Shown here piece after piece: positions 11,396-41,624 of a DNA stretch of 41,624 nucleotides. The position numbers and the translations under genes are program-made. The DNA is from a virus: IMG/VR virus record IMGVR_UViG_3300032893_000126, positions 1 through 41,624 of that record; one strand, written 5' to 3'. The notes beneath the pieces are model-generated. The model had not been told where the DNA came from. It worked only from the letters and a program-made list of their open reading frames with translations, and did not search any database. Position 1 is the stretch's first letter, and each line of letters opens with the position of its first letter.

Positions 11396-11840
11396 CGAAT
11401 CCCCTCCTAATCTCTAAGTCAGCTGCGACCTGCTCGCTCAAGATCCGAGTGATGTCCTTCCCCTCGCGGACTTCTCCCTCGTCAATCCCCGGACAGATCT
11501 CCTTGAGCTTGCTCCAGCGATCGGCGGCCATGTTCTCAGGCCAGAACGGGAAGCTCCGGCACTGGAGCGGCCTGGCCTGGTAAACGCCGCACTTCCCGTC
11601 CTTGAGGAAGACGCAGCCCTTCTCGTTCGTCTTGAGGAACCACTGCGAGGTCTCCCCACGAGTGAACCTCGTCGAAGTGAAACGGCCAAAGCTCGCGAAT
11701 TCGGTCGGGCTCTTCGCCCCGAGGAAGAACCCGAGGCGGATCATGTCCGACTTCGTCAGAAAGATGTAGGATCGGTCCCCCCCCCAGGAAAGCTTGCAGC
11801 ACCGTCCTGCGCACGACTCTTGGCACTCGAATCTCATCAT
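11358..11840 (-). CDS. YkgJ-type cysteine cluster protein
   Basis: Cysteines 6, 10, 14, 15, 76, 84, 94 and 116 (160 aa in total) give the CxxxCxxxCC ... CxxxxxxxC ... RPxxCRxFPF ... C arrangement of the UPF0153/YkgJ family. GKCGVYQARPLQCRSFPFWP is the diagnostic part. The family is thought to bind Zn or Fe-S, and some members accompany modification enzymes. The biochemical role is not established. It directly follows, and is coupled (ATGA) to, a GT9 glycosyltransferase, so a shared target is possible. Confidence 0.8.
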   Translation of the reverse strand: MMRFECQESCAGRCCKLSWGGDRSYIFLTKSDMIRLGFFLGAKSPTEFASFGRFTSTRFTRGETSQWFLKTNEKGCVFLKDGKCGVYQARPLQCRSFPFWPENMAADRWSKLKEICPGIDEGEVREGKDITRILSEQVAADLEIRRGFDGYVSTAHQGNA

Positions 11841-12607
11841 AACCTCTTATAGCTCCAGGTGAAGCCGGCGTCATCTTCTCCTGGATTGTGGATCAGCGCC
11901 ATTCGGTCGTCCCAGTGGGAATGGAGCCGGCAGCACTCGAGGGGAACCCAGTTCCGGAGGTCCTCGGGATTGGGACGGAGCCTGAGCGTCTTGACGACGA
12001 CGTCCGGATAGCACTTGGCGATCCAGCTCGGTCCGGAGTCGACTCCGATGAACATCCGTGCCTTCGAGATCGCCTCGGCGAGCTCCCAGAGCCCTCCGAT
12101 CCCGATCCGGGGGGGGCGTGGGAGCGGGTACTTCCAGTCGTCATCAAGGCCGATCCACCGGACCGCGTCCCCGTACTTATCGAGGACGTGACGGACGACG
12201 TACTCGGGCATCGTCCCATGGCTCTTGCCCTGGGTATGCAGGATGATCTCTAACCTCTGATGGAACGGGAACTCCTCGAACCGATAGAGCCTGGGGCGGT
12301 TCAACTTGACCGTATAGGAGAAGTGACGGGCGTGGGCCTCGGCGTTGCAGAGATAGACGGTCCTCTCGCGGTATTGGGCGGGATTGTCGGTGCAGTGGAG
12401 CTGCCAGAGGTCGATCTTCCGCTCGATCTGGAGCTTCTCTTCGAGATCGGCTGCTCCTCGGATGACGTAGGGATTGAAGTCAAAGACCCAGTGATCGTTG
12501 AGGTCGACGAGCTTCTGTCCCGTGTGCTTGAAGTAGTTCTCCGGGACGCTCGTGAACTGGACGGCGTCTCCGATCCCGATCGTCTTCCTGACGGAGATCC
12601 CGATCAC
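11837..12607 (-). CDS. GT9-like (heptosyltransferase-type) glycosyltransferase
   Basis: The 256-aa protein starts at a GTG coupled to the previous stop (GTGA). IGIGDAVQFTSVPE at 10-23 matches the N-terminal donor-lobe loop of GT9 enzymes. FIGVDSGPSWIAKC at 187-200 matches the acceptor/nucleotide motif of ADP-heptose:LPS heptosyltransferases. It is short for the family (usually about 320-350 aa) and may lack part of the first Rossmann domain. Substrate could be host LPS, virion protein or DNA; the sequence does not decide. A second GT9 homologue lies at 33827. Confidence 0.7.
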   Translation of the reverse strand: MIGISVRKTIGIGDAVQFTSVPENYFKHTGQKLVDLNDHWVFDFNPYVIRGAADLEEKLQIERKIDLWQLHCTDNPAQYRERTVYLCNAEAHARHFSYTVKLNRPRLYRFEEFPFHQRLEIILHTQGKSHGTMPEYVVRHVLDKYGDAVRWIGLDDDWKYPLPRPPRIGIGGLWELAEAISKARMFIGVDSGPSWIAKCYPDVVVKTLRLRPNPEDLRNWVPLECCRLHSHWDDRMALIHNPGEDDAGFTWSYKRL

Positions 12608-21025: not shown

Positions 21026-21769
21026 CTATACTGCGTTGCGTTGGAGGAGGACGAACCAGCCGGAGGCCAGCGTATCGGTGATGATCCGCACGCGACGCTT
21101 CAGGACCCAGCACTTGAGGATCCGGGCGTACTCCTCGGGGCTACGGCCCCAGGTCCCGTTGTGGTGGGTCGGGTCGCTCTCCTCGCAGAGGAGGATCAAA
21201 GCGCTGGGCTTCGTGATCCGGAGGATCTCCTTGGCGGCGGAGTCCAGCTCAGCGTCGGTCAGGTGCTGGAGGACGGTGAAGCTCAGGAGCAGGTCGGCGA
21301 GCCCGTCGATCAGTCCCGTGTCCGCGAGGGAGGGGACGTTCCGGACCGTCGCCCTGGGCCAGCACTGCTCGGCGAGAGCGGCGAGCTTCGGATCCCGTTC
21401 GACTCCCGTCACATGGGCGGCGAACTCCATCAGGACCGGGAGGTTCCTCCCGTACCCGCAACCGAAATCGACCGCGTTCCCGCAGAACCCAGTGAGCATG
21501 CTCCGGATCTGCTGATGCTCGAGGTAGGTCCAGGCGATCATCCTCCGGGGGCGGTCCTCCCAGAGGCCGTCCAGGTCCCCTCCCGGTTCGCTCTTGTCGC
21601 TGTCGATATGACCCTGCTCCGTCCAGTGAACGGGGATCCACTCCGAGCCGTTGAAGATCGCCCCGTGGAGCGGCCACGCCCCGCCGCCGTCGAGCGCATA
21701 GATCCGGGCCATCCGCCCGTCCCGTGTCGCGTAGGTCTTCGCCTGGAAAAATAATTTCTTGTCCTTCAT
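21026..21769 (-). CDS. Class I SAM-dependent methyltransferase with small N-terminal domain
   Basis: The Rossmann core starts near residue 97 of 247. AVDFGCGYGRNLPVL is the SAM-binding loop, GVERDPKLAALAEQ the acidic strand-2 end, and ADLLLSFTVLQHL motif IV. It lacks PCQ or DPPY-type motifs, so it is not a standard DNA C5 or N6/N4 enzyme. Residues 12-60 (TRDGRMARIYALDGGG, GSEWIPVHWTEQGHID) resemble a small beta domain common in other short phage proteins. Substrate is unknown. ATGA coupling with the 21766 gene is clear. Confidence 0.8.
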   Translation of the reverse strand: MKDKKLFFQAKTYATRDGRMARIYALDGGGAWPLHGAIFNGSEWIPVHWTEQGHIDSDKSEPGGDLDGLWEDRPRRMIAWTYLEHQQIRSMLTGFCGNAVDFGCGYGRNLPVLMEFAAHVTGVERDPKLAALAEQCWPRATVRNVPSLADTGLIDGLADLLLSFTVLQHLTDAELDSAAKEILRITKPSALILLCEESDPTHHNGTWGRSPEEYARILKCWVLKRRVRIITDTLASGWFVLLQRNAV

Positions 21770-27653: not shown

Positions 27654-28313
27654 ATGGCAAAGAAGCTTGAAATCGTCTGGCGTGACCCGGGAACCCTCAC
27701 CCCTTACATCAAAAACGCGAAGGTTCATTCCAACGAACAGATCGATAAGATCGCCGGCCAGATCGCTGCCTTCGGATTCGATCAGCCCATCGTCGTCGAC
27801 AAAAAGGGCGTCATCATCAAGGGCCATGGACGGAGGGAAGCCGCAATCCGGCTGAAGCTCAAGAAAGTCCCGGTCGTCGTTTCGACGTTAGACCAGTATC
27901 AGGCGATGGCGGCACGTATTGGTGACAACAAAGTTGCTGAAGCGCCGTGGGACCCTGAGCTATTGAAATTCGATCTCGAATCCTTGAAGCTCGAAGAGTT
28001 TGACCTCGCGCTGACCGCGATGGACATGGATCAAATCTTCAGCATCACCAATCCGCAAAGCAGCGAAGATATTTTCAGCGAAAATGATCACAAGAGCGTT
28101 TCGGAGCGCAAAGAACAGTACGACTCTAGCGATCTTCGGCAGATGATTCTCGTGATGGATCCCGTGACTTTCGATGCGATGATGAACCGATTTGCCAGTT
28201 TACAGGATGCGTTCGGAGTAGAAACAAATTTGGAGGTCGTTGAAAAACTCATGGACCACTACGCCGAATCTAACCCTTCTGTTTTTGAATCCGCGGTTCA
28301 TGCTTCGAATTGA
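27654..28313 (+). CDS. ParB-N-like protein without methylase domain
   Basis: Residues 1-125 of 219 follow the ParB/Srx fold: a TPYIKNAKVHSNEQIDKIAG start, DQPIVVDKKGVIIKGHGRRE (44-62), RIGDNKVAEAPWDPELLKFD, and DFDLALT-like ending. In many phages this domain is fused to an N4/N6 adenine or cytosine methylase. Here the fusion partner is missing, and a helical C-terminus (VTFDAMMNRFASLQDAFGVE) takes its place. It is the first gene of the modification operon and may be a DNA-guiding or CTP-dependent factor for the dioxygenase. Confidence 0.75.
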   Translation: MAKKLEIVWRDPGTLTPYIKNAKVHSNEQIDKIAGQIAAFGFDQPIVVDKKGVIIKGHGRREAAIRLKLKKVPVVVSTLDQYQAMAARIGDNKVAEAPWDPELLKFDLESLKLEEFDLALTAMDMDQIFSITNPQSSEDIFSENDHKSVSERKEQYDSSDLRQMILVMDPVTFDAMMNRFASLQDAFGVETNLEVVEKLMDHYAESNPSVFESAVHASN

Positions 28314-29115
28314 AACCTCGCTCGGGGCGAAGGCGGATCGGGTTGATCTTTACCGGACATCGCCAAAGGAAGAGCACGCAAAAAATCTCATTGCTGAAAG
28401 CTGTGAGCTTTGGGTGGACGGCGTAAAAACGCTCACCTATCTGCAAAACTTTCCGATGGAGGACCTCCGAGGAGCGGTTCGCGCGATTGAAAAAATTGGT
28501 TCAAATAGGCGTCAAAGTGGGGTTCCGAGCCAGAGTCGGACCTTCGGATTCATGCCTCGAATGCCAGTTCAACAAAGGGATTATTGCTTCGGTTGTACAT
28601 TGAATCGCGATTACCCGGCGACAAAGAATGTTCTCTTTCGTTACGCGGAAAAATTCACTGAACTCCTCGGAAAACATCATCCGGAAAAGCTCACTTTAAG
28701 CCGGCAAGCGATTTCAACAGTTCAACCGGACTGGGTGATTCCTCACAGCGTTTTTACCAGCGGAATCGTCAACCAGGACAATCCGCTTCAATACCATTAC
28801 GACGCCGGAAATTTTGAAGGGACTTGGTCCGTAATGGCCATGTTGAAACACCAAGTCGCCGGAGGTCACTTAGTCCTTCCGGAGTTCGGAATTAAACTCG
28901 CTTGCGCCGATAGCTCGGTGCTGATCTTTGACGGTCAAAGCGAGCTGCATGGAGTGACGCCGATCCGTAAGATGCACGCCGATTCCTATCGGTTTTCGAT
29001 CGTGTTTTACTCACTAGAAAGAATGTGCAAATGCGGAACGCCACGCGAGGAGCTTCGCCGGGCGCAAAAATCCAGGACCGCCACCGAAATGAAGCGCGCC
29101 GGAGTCACGAAATGA
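28300..29115 (+). CDS. TET/JBP-type 2-oxoglutarate/Fe(II) dioxygenase
   Basis: The frame is open to a TTG at 28240, but ATG at 28300 gives 271 aa starting MLRIETSLGAK. The double-stranded beta-helix has its iron site in NPLQYHYDAGNFEGTW (His166, Asp168) and SELHGVTPI (His217). The oxoglutarate-binding Arg is in SYRFSIVFYS (Arg231). The Asn-Asp-Asn-Pro-Leu before the HxD and the Gly-Gly-His-Leu-Val-Leu-Pro-Glu segment match phage TET/JBP members. These hydroxylate 5-methylcytosine or thymine in DNA. A C-terminal Cys-rich basic tail may bind DNA. Confidence 0.75.
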   Translation: MLRIETSLGAKADRVDLYRTSPKEEHAKNLIAESCELWVDGVKTLTYLQNFPMEDLRGAVRAIEKIGSNRRQSGVPSQSRTFGFMPRMPVQQRDYCFGCTLNRDYPATKNVLFRYAEKFTELLGKHHPEKLTLSRQAISTVQPDWVIPHSVFTSGIVNQDNPLQYHYDAGNFEGTWSVMAMLKHQVAGGHLVLPEFGIKLACADSSVLIFDGQSELHGVTPIRKMHADSYRFSIVFYSLERMCKCGTPREELRRAQKSRTATEMKRAGVTK

Positions 29116-29837
29116 AGTTCAAAATCTATGTTATTTCACACCTCCGGCCCGCCGCCGTTGCAAAGATGACTCCCTTTGTCGGGGTAGCGACGTGGTGTGT
29201 GGGAGCGGGGGAAAAGCAAGCTTACACTTATGCCGGTGCCGAACGCGCAGTGGAGACCGGCGGTCTTTGTGAAAGCAGAAATTGGGCGCTCGAAGACGCT
29301 TTCAAGAGTGGTGCGGCTTGCGTTCAAATTTCGGATGACCTGAGTAAGTTGGCGCGGATCGTGGAGATCGGAAAGAACACGACCACCAAGATGACCGTTC
29401 GAGAGGCCGTCGAGCTTATGATCGCGCAAGCCGATGCGGTCGGCGCGAAGTACGCCGGGTGCGCTCCGACGGCGAACCCCTTCTTCACTCAACGGAAGGT
29501 CAGCACTGCACACTTTATCGTTGGTGATTTTATAACTGTTCTTCCGAGCGAGCCCCGATTCGACACCCGATTGAAACTCAAAGAGGACTATGACTTCACA
29601 GCGCAGCACTTCAACGAGTACGGAGCCGTCGCTCGATGTGACGAGATCATGGCAACGTTCGCTCATCGGACGAACGCCGGGGGTGCTGTCGCTTACCGAA
29701 CGAGCGAGCGCGAGCAGGAAGCGATCCGCCTTCTCAAAGCGAAGTGGCCTAAATGGATCATCGATAATGGTCGTCGGAACGACGAAGTTCTGATGCGATT
29801 ACCGAAAATGAAGCCGTCTAATCTATCGGTTTCATAA
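29112..29837 (+). CDS. GREB1/TAGT-type DNA glycosyltransferase candidate
   Basis: The 241-aa protein is ATGA-coupled to the dioxygenase. KIYVISHLRPAAVAKM starts a GT-A-like core. GLCESRNWALEDAF and VQISDDLSKL (Asp75-Asp76) give the donor and metal site. LKEDYDFTAQH is the second acidic patch. HRTNAGGAVAYRTSEREQEA with IRLLKAKWP matches the conserved end of TET/JBP-associated glycosyltransferases, the group that includes the base-J glucosyltransferase. It should add a sugar to the hydroxymethyl base made by its neighbour. Confidence 0.7.
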   Translation: MKFKIYVISHLRPAAVAKMTPFVGVATWCVGAGEKQAYTYAGAERAVETGGLCESRNWALEDAFKSGAACVQISDDLSKLARIVEIGKNTTTKMTVREAVELMIAQADAVGAKYAGCAPTANPFFTQRKVSTAHFIVGDFITVLPSEPRFDTRLKLKEDYDFTAQHFNEYGAVARCDEIMATFAHRTNAGGAVAYRTSEREQEAIRLLKAKWPKWIIDNGRRNDEVLMRLPKMKPSNLSVS

Positions 29838-30817: not shown

Positions 30818-30893
30818 TGGGAAGTAGCTCAGTCGGTAGAGCAATCGGCTGTTAACCGATCGGTCGAACGTTCGAATCGTTCCTTCCCAGCCA
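30818..30893 (+). tRNA. tRNA-Asn (GTT)
   Basis: The cloverleaf is complete. The acceptor is TGGGAAG/CTTCCCA, the D-arm is GCTC..GAGC, and the anticodon stem ATCGG/CCGAT holds CTGTTAA (GTT at 30851-30853). The T-arm is GAACG TTCGAAT CGTTC, then G and an encoded CCA (891-893). It lies 3 bp after the stop of the preceding ORF and is probably processed from the same transcript. Confidence 0.95.
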
Positions 30894-32834: not shown

Positions 32835-33172
32835 TGGGTGGTTTCGTCCTCCATGATCTCCTTGCGGATCTCGGCCCAGTCAGAGCCGGCGATGCGCTTG
32901 ACCGCGGTGAAGAGCCGCCGCATGTCGAGCTTGAACTTCGAGAACTCTCCGAGCGTCGACTCCAGGGACTTGATCTTCGACTCCAGGTGCTGGATCGCGA
33001 TCGTACTCTCCTGGATCGTCGAGGAGAGCCTTTCGATCCCCGTCTCGGTGAGGCGGTCCTTCTTCTCCTTGAGCTGCCAGAGGAACTCCCCGACCCTGAC
33101 GACGAGCTGGAGCGCGACGATCACGCAGATCGCCCCGAGCGTCCCGCCGGTCCCCTTAAAGAGCTCGTCCAT
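32831..33172 (-). CDS. Single-span coiled-coil membrane protein (lysis)
   Basis: ATG at 33172 (113 aa) follows the FkbM gene with a 17-bp overlap. Residues 11-32 are one membrane span (TLGAICVIVALQLVVRVGEF). The rest is a coiled coil with heptads (TIAIQHLESKIKSLESTLGE). This resembles XhlA-like or pinholin/i-spanin components next to endolysins. The precise role is not decided by sequence. Confidence 0.55.
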   Translation of the reverse strand: MDELFKGTGGTLGAICVIVALQLVVRVGEFLWQLKEKKDRLTETGIERLSSTIQESTIAIQHLESKIKSLESTLGEFSKFKLDMRRLFTAVKRIAGSDWAEIRKEIMEDETTQ

Positions 33173-33830
33173 CGCTCCTCCGCTTCGCGTAGAACGGATA
33201 GCACCGGACCCCCATCGGCTTGAAGATCGCCAGGTCGAACCGGTCCGAGAGCTGCTTGAACATCGTGAAGTCGTCGTAGCCGTGAGCTTCCCCAAGAATG
33301 TACTGTACGTCGTGGAGCTTGCGGTCGAGGCTGAAGAGGATCCCCTCCTCCGCTCCCTCACAGTCGATCTTGATCAAATCAACTGGGCCAATCCTCTCAA
33401 ACTCGAAGGCGGCGTTCAGGACCTCGACCTCAAGTCGGTCCTCCGCGTTGGTTCCGAGATCGAAGAAGGACGATCCTCCGAAGTTCGTCGGATTGTCCGA
33501 TCGGTAGAGGAACTCGGACCCTGAGAACTCTCCGAGTGCTGCCTGGACGATCTTCACGTTCGGGAGCGGAGCGGTGTTCATCGCCAGGATCTCGAAGTTC
33601 TGCGGGTCGGGCTCGTAGCAGTGGATCTCCGCGTGAGGCCATTCATGGGCCATCAGGAGAGCAGTGATCCCAATATTCGCACCGATATCGACGATCCGCC
33701 TCGGGGATATGTTCTTCGGCAGGTGATATTCCTGCCGTTTCTCGAGGATGATCTCGATCATGTCGGCGTCCGACGTCCCAGGTCGGTAATAGATCCTTCG
33801 ATGGTTCCAGGTTTTGACTTCGAGGGTCAT
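33156..33830 (-). CDS. FkbM-type methyltransferase
   Basis: The start at 33830 overlaps the GT9 stop (ATGA) and gives 224 aa. VDIGANIGITALLM (47-60) is the SAM loop, IHCYEPDPQNFEIL the strand-2 motif, and LIKIDCEGAEEGILF the FkbM-specific segment. FkbM enzymes O-methylate sugars and related small groups, which fits a partner that caps a sugar added by the adjacent GT9 protein. It is not a DNA methylase by motif. Confidence 0.8.
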   Translation of the reverse strand: MTLEVKTWNHRRIYYRPGTSDADMIEIILEKRQEYHLPKNISPRRIVDIGANIGITALLMAHEWPHAEIHCYEPDPQNFEILAMNTAPLPNVKIVQAALGEFSGSEFLYRSDNPTNFGGSSFFDLGTNAEDRLEVEVLNAAFEFERIGPVDLIKIDCEGAEEGILFSLDRKLHDVQYILGEAHGYDDFTMFKQLSDRFDLAIFKPMGVRCYPFYAKRRSDGRAL

Positions 33831-34834
33831 AGGGCCGCCTTGTCGCAGGCCCATCCCGCGAACTCTTCTGGATCGGGAAGCCACGATAGGAGAGCGATCT
33901 CAGGGACTCGTTCAGCGGTGACTTCGCTCGCCTTGTTCGGGCAGTTGTCAATGATATTCCAGATGCCCCCGCGTCCGAAGTTCTTCATTCGCCATCCCCA
34001 CTCCCCTTTTCGCCAGTGAGTGATCATGTCCGGGTGCTTGCAGGTGGCGACGTATCCGATCCAGGCATTTCCAGGAGCAGCGAGGTGGAGCGGGCTCGAG
34101 TCGTTCGTCAAAAGAACACGAGATTTTGAAAGAAGAGTGATCGTCTGGGTCACGCTGAGCTGATTTCTGAGGTCGACGCAGCCCTCTGTCGAAACGTCGA
34201 CCGTCCCCCGGTTGTCGTCCGTGTCCGCTCCGATCAGTACGGGTCGGCATCCGTGAGCGAGGATCGTCATCAGGACCCGGTTCCACCACTCGACTGGAAA
34301 CGTCTTCGACTGCCAGTGACGACCGGCGTGGACGACGACGTAGTTAGGCTCTATCGCGAGGGCATCGAGAACGCTCTCAGGAAGAGGAACCCCAGATAGA
34401 GTGACCTCGCGATCCTTCACCGGGAGCTGGCACCGGAGCGCGCAGAGCGACGGGAAGTCAACGCAGTTGACGAGCATGTGAGAGAAGAACTGCCAGACGA
34501 GGTTCGAGTCATCCGGAGGAGTGATCGTCTCGAAGCAGAGGAAGTTCTCATAGACGGGCCGTTGCCATCGGAGGTCATAGACTCGGTCGAAGGTGAGGTG
34601 GGCGAACATTTCAGGCTGCTCTGATGCGAGAGAGATCGTGCACCCCTTGAAGGACTTCAGCGCGTACCTGAGCGTAGGCTCTGCGCACGCCTGGTCCCCG
34701 AGCCCTCCCCACGTCCGGAAGAGGAGATTCCTCTCGACGCCATTCTGGACGGCGATCGTTGTACGAGCATTAGGAATAAGACCGACTGGGATCTGGAAGT
34801 AGTCTCGATGGGGATCGACTTTTCTATTGGACAT
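33827..34834 (-). CDS. GT9-like glycosyltransferase next to the tail fibre
   Basis: This 335-aa protein is near the usual length of heptosyltransferases. LLFRTWGGLGDQACAEPTL is the N-terminal lobe motif. VVVHAGRHWQSKTFPVEWW and LLTNDSSPLHLAAPGNAW are the C-terminal lobe motifs of GT9. It lies between the RCC1 tail protein and an FkbM methyltransferase. It may decorate the tail protein or remodel host LPS. It is distinct from the shorter homologue at 11837. Confidence 0.8.
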   Translation of the reverse strand: MSNRKVDPHRDYFQIPVGLIPNARTTIAVQNGVERNLLFRTWGGLGDQACAEPTLRYALKSFKGCTISLASEQPEMFAHLTFDRVYDLRWQRPVYENFLCFETITPPDDSNLVWQFFSHMLVNCVDFPSLCALRCQLPVKDREVTLSGVPLPESVLDALAIEPNYVVVHAGRHWQSKTFPVEWWNRVLMTILAHGCRPVLIGADTDDNRGTVDVSTEGCVDLRNQLSVTQTITLLSKSRVLLTNDSSPLHLAAPGNAWIGYVATCKHPDMITHWRKGEWGWRMKNFGRGGIWNIIDNCPNKASEVTAERVPEIALLSWLPDPEEFAGWACDKAAL

Positions 34835-36524
34835 ACGTCAGCAATAGCGAAGAGACGGGTCCCCACGCAACTGGAGTCGTTCCAAAAGTGCTCGTCGCAT
34901 TCGAGAGCGTGATCGTATAAGAATTTCCAGGTATTACTGTGATCCTGGTCGATGAAGGCGTCGTCGCCGGAGCTAGCCCCTGCGGAAATGTGCTGAAGAC
35001 CTGGGGACCCAGGACGAGGACTGGGGAGCTTCGCGGAGTCACGTCCCCGACGCCGAGTTGTCCATAGGTGTTTTGGCCCCATGCGTAGACGGCCCCGGCG
35101 CTTGTCAGTCCATAACACGAGTCGACGCACGCAGCGATCTGGATGAACGTCAATCCTCCAAGAACCGCTACAGGAGAGCTTCTCGGGGTGACGTCGCCAA
35201 GACCGAGTTGTCCGTTCGCGTTATTTCCCCAGGCGTAGACGGCTCCTGCGGCCGTGAGCCCGTAGCAGGAGTTCGCACCTGAAACGAGTTGCGTAAACGT
35301 CAAGCCACCGAGAACCGCTACAGGAGAACTCCTCGGCGTGACGTCGCCGACTCCGAGTTGCCCGTTACTATTGTATCCCCATGCATAGGCCGCGCCAGCA
35401 GCGGTCAGTCCATAGGCGACCTCAGATCCGGCGGCGAGCTGGGTGAAAACTAGTCCACCGAGAACCGCGATCGGAGAACTTTTCGACGTGACGTTGCCGA
35501 TCCCGAGCTCACCGTCCGCATTATTCCCCCACGCATAGGCGGCCCCTGCGGCGGTCAGGCCGTACCCAGAGGAACTGCCGGCGAAGATCTGAGAGAATGT
35601 CAAACCCCCGAGGACGAGTTGTGGCGTCGTTTGGGTCGAGACGTTCCCGTTCCCGAGCTGCCCGTAGGTATTCGATCCCCATGCATAGGCCGCTCCGTTC
35701 GGAGCCAGGCCGTAGATATTTAGGTTTCCGGCGGAGATCTGGATAAACTGAGGACCCGACGTAATCAGGACCGGGCTGCTTTGCGTCCCGATTCCGGTTC
35801 CGGTCGAGATGCCCCACGCATAAAGCGCGCCCGAGGACGATAGGCCGTATCCGTTGGAGTTTCCTGAAGCGACTTGAACGAAGGTTTGCCCTCCGATCAC
35901 CATGACTGGGGAGCTTCTCGGCGTGACATCGCCGGTGCCGAGCTGTCCGCTCGCGTTATACCCCCAGGAGAAGACAAGACCACCGGGGGTTCGTGCCATG
36001 GGAGTGTAGCCAGAAGATCCAGGAGCGAACAGCCCAGCGACCTGATACGTCGGCGTGACAACGATACTTGTGACTCCGCTCGGAACCGTGAACGACTGTG
36101 TAGAGGAGATCGTGGTGGAGATCGGCCCCTTCTGGAGCCAGTAAGTCGCGTTCGATGTCGCGTGGTTCACGTTCGAGTCGGACAATGACATGTAGATGAC
36201 GCCCGCCGACTGGACGAAGCTCCCTGTATAATAGGTCGTCGCCGAGTCCCACTCCGGGATTCCCTCCTGGAACAGGTAAGCGAGCTGGTAGGCAAATAGG
36301 TAACAGAGGGCGTTCATGTCCTCGATGCAGGGGCTGTTCGACCCGACGATTGCGGACGTCCATCCACTGAGGTACTGAGAGAGGGTCTGAATGATCGTCG
36401 GAGTGATCGTCGAGCCGGTGTACCTTGCCGGAGTACCGTTCGCGAAGCTTCCGAATTCGGCCATCTGATTCGTCCCAGCTGTCGAACCAAAGATCAGTTG
36501 CGTGTATCTGCTCAGCTTGCTCAT
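34824..36524 (-). CDS. Tail fibre-type protein with a seven-blade RCC1 propeller
   Basis: The 566-aa protein starts with a tail-attachment region (MSKLSRYTQLIFGSTAGTNQ, then CYLFAYQLAYLFQEGIP). It then holds about seven tandem RCC1 blades at roughly 183-500, each close to YAWGxNxxGQLGxGDVTPRS with SPVAVLGGLTFxQ. The second blade is shorter (YAWGISTGTGIGTQSSPV). RCC1 propellers bind proteins or sugars in other systems. As a phage receptor-binding domain this is unusual but fits the location. DNA repeats mirror the blades. Confidence 0.75.
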   Translation of the reverse strand: MSKLSRYTQLIFGSTAGTNQMAEFGSFANGTPARYTGSTITPTIIQTLSQYLSGWTSAIVGSNSPCIEDMNALCYLFAYQLAYLFQEGIPEWDSATTYYTGSFVQSAGVIYMSLSDSNVNHATSNATYWLQKGPISTTISSTQSFTVPSGVTSIVVTPTYQVAGLFAPGSSGYTPMARTPGGLVFSWGYNASGQLGTGDVTPRSSPVMVIGGQTFVQVASGNSNGYGLSSSGALYAWGISTGTGIGTQSSPVLITSGPQFIQISAGNLNIYGLAPNGAAYAWGSNTYGQLGNGNVSTQTTPQLVLGGLTFSQIFAGSSSGYGLTAAGAAYAWGNNADGELGIGNVTSKSSPIAVLGGLVFTQLAAGSEVAYGLTAAGAAYAWGYNSNGQLGVGDVTPRSSPVAVLGGLTFTQLVSGANSCYGLTAAGAVYAWGNNANGQLGLGDVTPRSSPVAVLGGLTFIQIAACVDSCYGLTSAGAVYAWGQNTYGQLGVGDVTPRSSPVLVLGPQVFSTFPQGLAPATTPSSTRITVIPGNSYTITLSNATSTFGTTPVAWGPVSSLLLTYVQ

Positions 36525-41194: not shown

Positions 41195-41539
41195 CTACGC
41201 CCCTCGGAGTGCTTGCTGGTACGCCAGCACCTCCGCCGCCGTCAGGACATAGAGCTTCGCGTTCCCGGAGGAGAAGTCCTGGATGAGCGAGGGATCGCGG
41301 TTATCGACCGTAAAGCACGCAAGCCCGAACGGGAGCTGTGTCGAGAACTGAAAGAGCAGATTCGGCGAGCAGACGACGCGAATCCCGCATACCGTGAATG
41401 TCTGATAAGAGAGCTTAGTGATGACCCAGGCGTACTGCATCGGCATGAAGACGAGTTCAAGGTCGAAGGAGCTTCCATCCGGGAGTATCAGGGTCGTCTT
41501 CTGGGAGGGGTCGGGTGTGACATTCTGGATCAGGTTCAT
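41195..41539 (-). CDS. Small baseplate/hub-associated protein (DUF6983-like)
   Basis: The 114-aa protein starts in the repeated end (41539 equals base 45) and is coupled to the 42-845 gene by ATGA across the join. The pattern ILPDGSSFDLELVFMPMQYA with CFTVDNRDPSLIQDFSSGNA matches small proteins between hub components in many myoviruses. It is beta-rich with no catalytic site. Confidence 0.6.
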   Translation of the reverse strand: MNLIQNVTPDPSQKTTLILPDGSSFDLELVFMPMQYAWVITKLSYQTFTVCGIRVVCSPNLLFQFSTQLPFGLACFTVDNRDPSLIQDFSSGNAKLYVLTAAEVLAYQQALRGA

Positions 41540-41624
41540 AGTCCGAAGCTCGAAGAGAGTTGAGTGTTGAGGCCGAGGCTGGGAACCGGGGTCTGGATCC
41601 CGTTGTTCACCTGGCCGAACACCT
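41495..41624. repeat. Terminal direct repeat, right copy
   Basis: This is the same 130 bases as 1-130 with one difference at 41621 (A instead of G at 127). On the minus strand the change turns Ala240 of the tail protein into Val. It marks the circular closure of the sequence. Confidence 0.95.
41536..41624 (-). CDS. Partial copy of the hub-associated gene at 42-845
   Basis: Because of the terminal repeat, only the last 29 codons or so of the 42-845 gene appear again here, cut by the window end. It is not a second gene. It carries the Val variant of codon 240. Confidence 0.85.
   Translation of the reverse strand, partial: VFGQVNNGIQTPVPSLGLNTQLSSSFGL

Follow-up and report, generated by a model that had tools for sequence, protein, structure and literature searches.

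T-even phages attach a sugar to a hydroxymethyl pyrimidine, a base that they produce at the nucleotide level with a thymidylate-synthase-family enzyme. Kinetoplastids produce base J by a eukaryotic pathway in which JBP1 has a J-binding domain of its own and in which, to our knowledge, no ParB partner takes part. The two steps of that pathway, hydroxylation of thymine in DNA by JBP1/2 and glycosylation by a glucosyltransferase (PMC6449724), are the same two that we propose below for a phage, and base J was unreported in phage genomes according to a 2019 paper. Closer still is the set of Rhodococcus phage Tonitrus, for which a role in thymidine hypermodification has been proposed (PMC11955845); here ParB-like and TET-like genes lie in one operon with a tailoring enzyme downstream, and the phage has an amino acid:DNA transferase (ADDT) and a P-loop kinase. 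Arthrobacter phage Lilmac1015 has a TET-TAGT set, in which the oxygenase is followed by a TAGT-type transferase, ParB lies two genes upstream of the oxygenase and a PIG-L deacetylase is added. Marine phages of the Melnitz type also carry a TET-family oxygenase in a DNA-modification operon, next to a C5-methyltransferase. The cassette described here joins the widespread, already proposed ParB-TET kind, which is predicted yet, as far as we found, chemically uncharacterised: our literature search returned no chemical test of the Tonitrus set or of sets of the present type, and no report of a measured product from related phage ParB-TET cassettes.

The window, that is, the whole 41.6-kb stretch of DNA analysed (41,624 nucleotides), is the entire IMG/VR record IMGVR_UViG_3300032893_000126. 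Because its first and last 130 bases (1-130 and 41495-41624) form a direct repeat that agrees at 129 of 130 positions, with one mismatch, the phage genome is probably complete. Portal, terminase and major head protein are encoded together with a tail sheath and a baseplate hub and wedge, and the tail and baseplate genes bear out an earlier assignment to the myoviruses. The phage terminase shares no more than 54% identity with its counterparts in Rhizobium phages. The cassette (positions 27654-29837) consists of three plus-strand open reading frames that overlap head to tail, as a preliminary description of three coupled genes had stated. The first (27654..28313) encodes a ParB-N (ParB/Srx) protein of 219 amino acids, a proposed DNA-targeting partner. 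It overlaps by 14 bp the gene for a TET/JBP 2OG-Fe(II) dioxygenase of 271 amino acids (28300..29115, ATG at 28300), a proposed DNA thymine hydroxylase, which in turn overlaps by 4 bp (ATGA) the gene for a TAGT-type GT-A glycosyltransferase of 241 amino acids (29112..29837, ATG at 29112), proposed to transfer a glycosyl group to the hydroxymethyl base. Minus-strand replication genes adjoin the cassette, and a tRNA-Asn (gtt) lies about 1 kb downstream (30818-30893). The G+C content of the cassette is low against the genome mean (52.2% versus 59.7%, within the lowest 4% of windows along the genome), which suggests that the cassette was acquired from elsewhere. Dinucleotide values for the genome (CG 1.22, TA 0.50, GA 1.61) gave no interpretable signature of modification.

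The second gene had been described as a TET/JBP dioxygenase with an intact HxD...H...R motif, and profile and fold both agree. Its product scores 54.8 bits against PF12851 (Tet_JBP), above the cut-off of 34.9, and the residue numbering is exact with the ATG at 28300: H166, D168 and H217 of the Fe(II) triad and the 2OG-binding R231 are invariant across 54 aligned sequences. The structure model (pLDDT 94.8) is closest to TET2 (Z 20.6 over 248 residues, rmsd 3.9), with NgTet1 (Z 19.3), CMD1 (19.0) and CcTet (17.1) also matched; FTO (Z 16.0) and AlkB-type enzymes rank behind the TETs. The sixteen top structural matches are TET enzymes that act on DNA. Structure prediction could instead have placed the protein with protein or small-molecule hydroxylases, none of which occurs among the best 50 matches listed.

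RefSeq and PHROGs (phrog_6059) give related oxygenases of TET type in Mycobacterium phages (L002:776-1744 and related records) the name ‘queuine tRNA-ribosyltransferase’. We considered a 7-deazaguanine system because of this name and rejected it; since those genes align with the TET oxygenase across the catalytic domain, the name appears to be an error carried over from elsewhere.

For the third protein, previously described as a glycosyltransferase with an SDD motif, the score against PF20691 (TAGT) is just below the cut-off (23.9 versus 27.5 bits), and the probable TAGT-type assignment draws on its relatives, 34 of 39 of which, as aligned, match the profile (E 0.01 or better). The TAGT family of T-even phages is a distant relative (phrog_842, E 7e-4), and the transferase of the Arthrobacter set is only 31% identical. 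Both SDD aspartates (D75 and D76) are invariant among the relatives and the KEDYD pair E158-D159 is conserved in at least 90%. Searched against the sequences of solved structures, the transferase profile gave no credible match, so the structural case is that of the fold comparison: the model (pLDDT 94.5), which could have fallen outside the glycosyltransferases, has GT-A enzymes as its matches (Z 12-14), and many of these are GT2-like. GT-A transferases are versatile and most of these structural neighbours act on polysaccharides or proteins, which would suit a cassette devoted to something other than DNA, with a protein or small molecule as the substrate of the oxygenase and a surface polymer as that of the transferase. 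We consider this highly improbable given the DNA-acting TETs that head the fold matches of the oxygenase, the co-occurrence of Tet_JBP in 28 of the 31 records with a transferase relative, and the constant linkage to ParB. Because the profiles and confident structure models came down on the side of DNA modification at each point where, as set out beforehand, they could have spoken against it, we are very confident that the cassette is a DNA hypermodification system.

We propose that this system would act after replication, on finished DNA. ParB would direct the TET/JBP oxygenase to DNA, either at chosen sites or on the phage genome, and the oxygenase, using 2-oxoglutarate, Fe(II) and O2, would hydroxylate the methyl group of a base that we take to be thymine, yielding 5-hydroxymethyl-dU. 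The TAGT-type transferase could then add a sugar, presumably from a host nucleotide-sugar, to give a base J-like glycosyl-5hmdU, and this product may serve to shield the phage DNA against restriction enzymes and other nucleases of the host, a protection that is expected by analogy. We judge the pathway as a whole to be reasonably probable. Against it, neither ADDT (PF18724) nor the kinase (PF18751) was found in the window record, which differs in this respect from the Tonitrus set and has a glycosyltransferase instead.

The substrate had been left as 5-methylcytosine (5mC) or thymine, to be hydroxylated and then glycosylated. Hydroxylation and glycosylation remain the best reading of the profiles and folds, and the choice of base can now be refined toward thymine. 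There is no C5-cytosine methyltransferase (PF00145) in the record, which probably holds the complete genome, and no PF01555 methyltransferase either; we therefore rejected 5mC supplied by the phage. PF00145 is likewise missing from three complete isolate phages with ParB-TET and from 45 of 50 related records (the ParB-type and TAGT-linked set), the remaining 5 having a match. It is, by contrast, present in all 10 records tested from the Melnitz-type TET clade, that of Methylophilales phage Melnitz, in which the oxygenase lies directly behind an HhaI-like C5-methyltransferase and ParB hardly occurs. The two kinds of neighbour, ParB and C5-methyltransferase, almost never stand beside the same oxygenase (Fisher p 5.7e-7), although, because each clade shares descent, these counts are non-independent and amount to one or a few evolutionary contrasts. 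A tree made by a quick method separates the ParB-linked from the methyltransferase-linked TETs (SH-aLRT 99) and places the window protein among 80 that are ParB-linked.

The two clades also differ at the third residue after the HxD motif (HxD+3). This residue is Asn171 in the window oxygenase and Asn in 80/80 TETs of its clade, whereas it is Asp in 11/11 methyltransferase-linked TETs. Its equivalents contact cytosine N4 in solved complexes (Asn1387 in TET2, Asp234 in NgTet1 and Asp350 in CMD1), and in docking Asp bonds poorly with thymine O4 (PMC7854593). Human TET2 nevertheless acts on 5mC with Asn at this position, and the D350N mutant of CMD1 gained no activity on T (PMC7854593). Asn at HxD+3 is thus permissive for thymine and not decisive.

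Sister cassettes offer a further indication: 11 of the 50 related records encode ADDT (PF18724), an amino acid:DNA transferase that acts in the 5hmdU pathway, and mostly do so directly after TET. A thymidylate-synthase-family hydroxymethylase (PF00303) was found in none of the 50 records searched, window included, so that 5hmdU in the ADDT cassettes, on the 5hmdU route of thymine hypermodification (PMC6449724), would need to be synthesized in DNA by TET. For the same reason we rejected a hydroxymethyl nucleotide made before replication: neither the window phage, unlike T-even phages, nor the 49 related records have a thymidylate-synthase-family gene. We did not keep the kinase as an indicator for thymine, since weaker kinase matches also occur beside methyltransferase-linked TETs. 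Taken together, the missing C5-methyltransferase, the fixed Asn and the ADDT genes of sister cassettes favour thymine over 5mC, and on these sequence comparisons thymine is, in our estimate, the probable substrate.

A host could supply 5mC, however, and an oxygenase acting on this host-made base, with ParB recruiting the enzymes and the transferase glycosylating 5hmC, would arrive by oxidation at a T-even-like product. The solved structures closest to the oxygenase (TET2, NgTet1 and CMD1) all act on 5mC, TET2 shares the Asn (PMC7854593), glucosyl-hmC is the substrate of the T-even TAGT (PMC13216743) and a few related cassettes do have a C5-methyltransferase. We nonetheless think this route unlikely, as most related genomes resemble the window in having no such phage enzyme, the TETs that consistently pair with one form a separate clade with Asp at HxD+3, and the ADDT of sister cassettes points to 5hmdU; reliance on a host mark would also be expected to protect phage DNA patchily.

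Whichever base is modified, ParB may be the component that sets where modification occurs. The first protein, previously called ParB-N, scores 27.0 bits against PF02195 (ParB_N; curated cut-off 26.3) and matches phrog_930 at 1e-41. Its residues 3-156 align with the N-terminal, ParB part of phrog_498, a phage DNA-methyltransferase family (8e-35). Our proposal is that ParB selects the site or the template. The same chemistry, on either base, is compatible with a ParB that does not target but serves as a regulator, a nucleotide-dependent clamp or a nickase, leaving TET and the glycosyltransferase to choose the sites; such a protein would control the timing of modification or confine it to phage DNA. 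Proteins of the ParB superfamily can nick DNA or regulate modification, with a negative regulatory role proposed for DndB and an ATPase function in the dPreQ0 pathway for DpdB (PMC12839542). ParB genes are also found with further phage base-modifying systems, among them CmoX cytosine-modification clusters, in which the precise function of ParB is stated to be unknown (PMC12783734). A non-targeting ParB is a real possibility, albeit one that we hold at clearly under even chances: the Melnitz-type clade has a specificity-setting C5-methyltransferase where ParB would be, as if ParB otherwise took over that task, and the same ParB type forms part of a DNA-methyltransferase family. In its most specific form our proposal is that glycosyl-5hmdU, as a prokaryotic equivalent of base J, is placed at ParB-chosen sites, that ParB replaces the sequence reading of the C5-methyltransferase, and that ParB-TET is a mobile core serving sugar, methyl and amino-acid transferases; this version we advance only tentatively.

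Among viral contigs we identified 292 oxygenase relatives and 432 transferase relatives and retained the best 80 of each. After dereplication (clustering at 80% identity, with at least 1.5 kb of upstream sequence required and ParB scored within 1.5 kb), ParB neighbours TET in 62 of 66 oxygenases of the window’s type and a C5-methyltransferase in one, a figure that covers this clade and is no unbiased sample of TETs, because ParB also neighboured the sequences used as seeds of the search. The third gene varies among 63 ParB-TET sets (TAGT in 45, FkbM methyltransferase in 7 and ADDT in 5), TAGT never occurs beside FkbM or ADDT in these sets, and gene order is permuted between ParB-TET-GT and ParB-GT-TET. 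On these adjacency and third-gene counts, what stays constant is the core of ParB and TET, and the two-enzyme layout is ordinary in a widespread phage family. The idea of an ‘unusually minimal pathway’, put forward in the preliminary description, consequently falls away, one oxygenase and one transferase being the usual make-up of the family.

A natural swap of the third gene is seen in the nearest relative of the oxygenase (67% identity), which sits in a 47.8-kb record with a G+C content of 44-47% in the parts measured and has FkbM where the window has TAGT. The two phages share ParB (57%), TET, two weakly similar flanking genes and an FkbM homologue, and no further protein matches were found between them. 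A search for relatives in bacterial genomes gave six matches, none of them close.

Other genes of modification type in the window also weaken the claim of minimality. All on the minus strand, these encode an FkbM methyltransferase (33156-33884), a GT9 transferase (33827-34834), a GT9-like transferase (11837-12607; match below its cut-off) and a class-I methyltransferase (Methyltransf_11; 21026-21769). The FkbM and GT9 genes immediately follow an RCC1-like tail-fibre gene (34824-36524). The four products may act on the tail fibre, the host surface or a DNA sugar. If on the last, one or both GT9-like enzymes and the FkbM or class-I methyltransferase would elaborate the sugar in further steps, which is compatible with each of the readings above and has parallels in the relatives that carry FkbM as a cassette gene and in the PIG-L deacetylase of the Arthrobacter TET-TAGT set. 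We doubt that such steps occur: the FkbM of the window is only 30% identical to that in the cassette of the nearest relative, and because the candidate genes lie on the opposite strand, beside tail-fibre, head and replication genes, modification of the tail fibre or host surface is equally likely for them.

If thymine is the substrate, phages own many small enzymes that hydroxylate it in finished DNA and add sugar, methyl or amino-acid groups. Counterparts of such chemistry have been described in kinetoplastid base J and, by another route, in a few phages. Because ParB is a constant partner, the choice of modification site can be tested directly with three small proteins, and directed thymine hydroxylases and DNA glycosyltransferases would be useful tools to label and map DNA.

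Several related loci depart from this layout. In Streptococcus phage Javan291 (L005:3411-4762) a TAGT-like transferase comes after ParB, and the stretch examined showed no TET. Two clusters (L046:8982-13220 and L047:5285-9523) each contain two TET and three ParB genes, with ADDT and kinase nearby, which may give a single phage two site specificities in parallel. Tandem ParB genes directly before TET (L065:8585-9828, L067:8666-9923, L070:75-1318 and L081:873-2116) are perhaps a two-part targeting unit. In Mycobacterium phage Nigel, gp3 (L002:1786-2382) comes after ParB-TET and is annotated as ‘terminase small subunit’; its match to PF18751, a P-loop nucleotide kinase, reaches 242.6 bits, and it is probably a hydroxymethyl-base DNA kinase.
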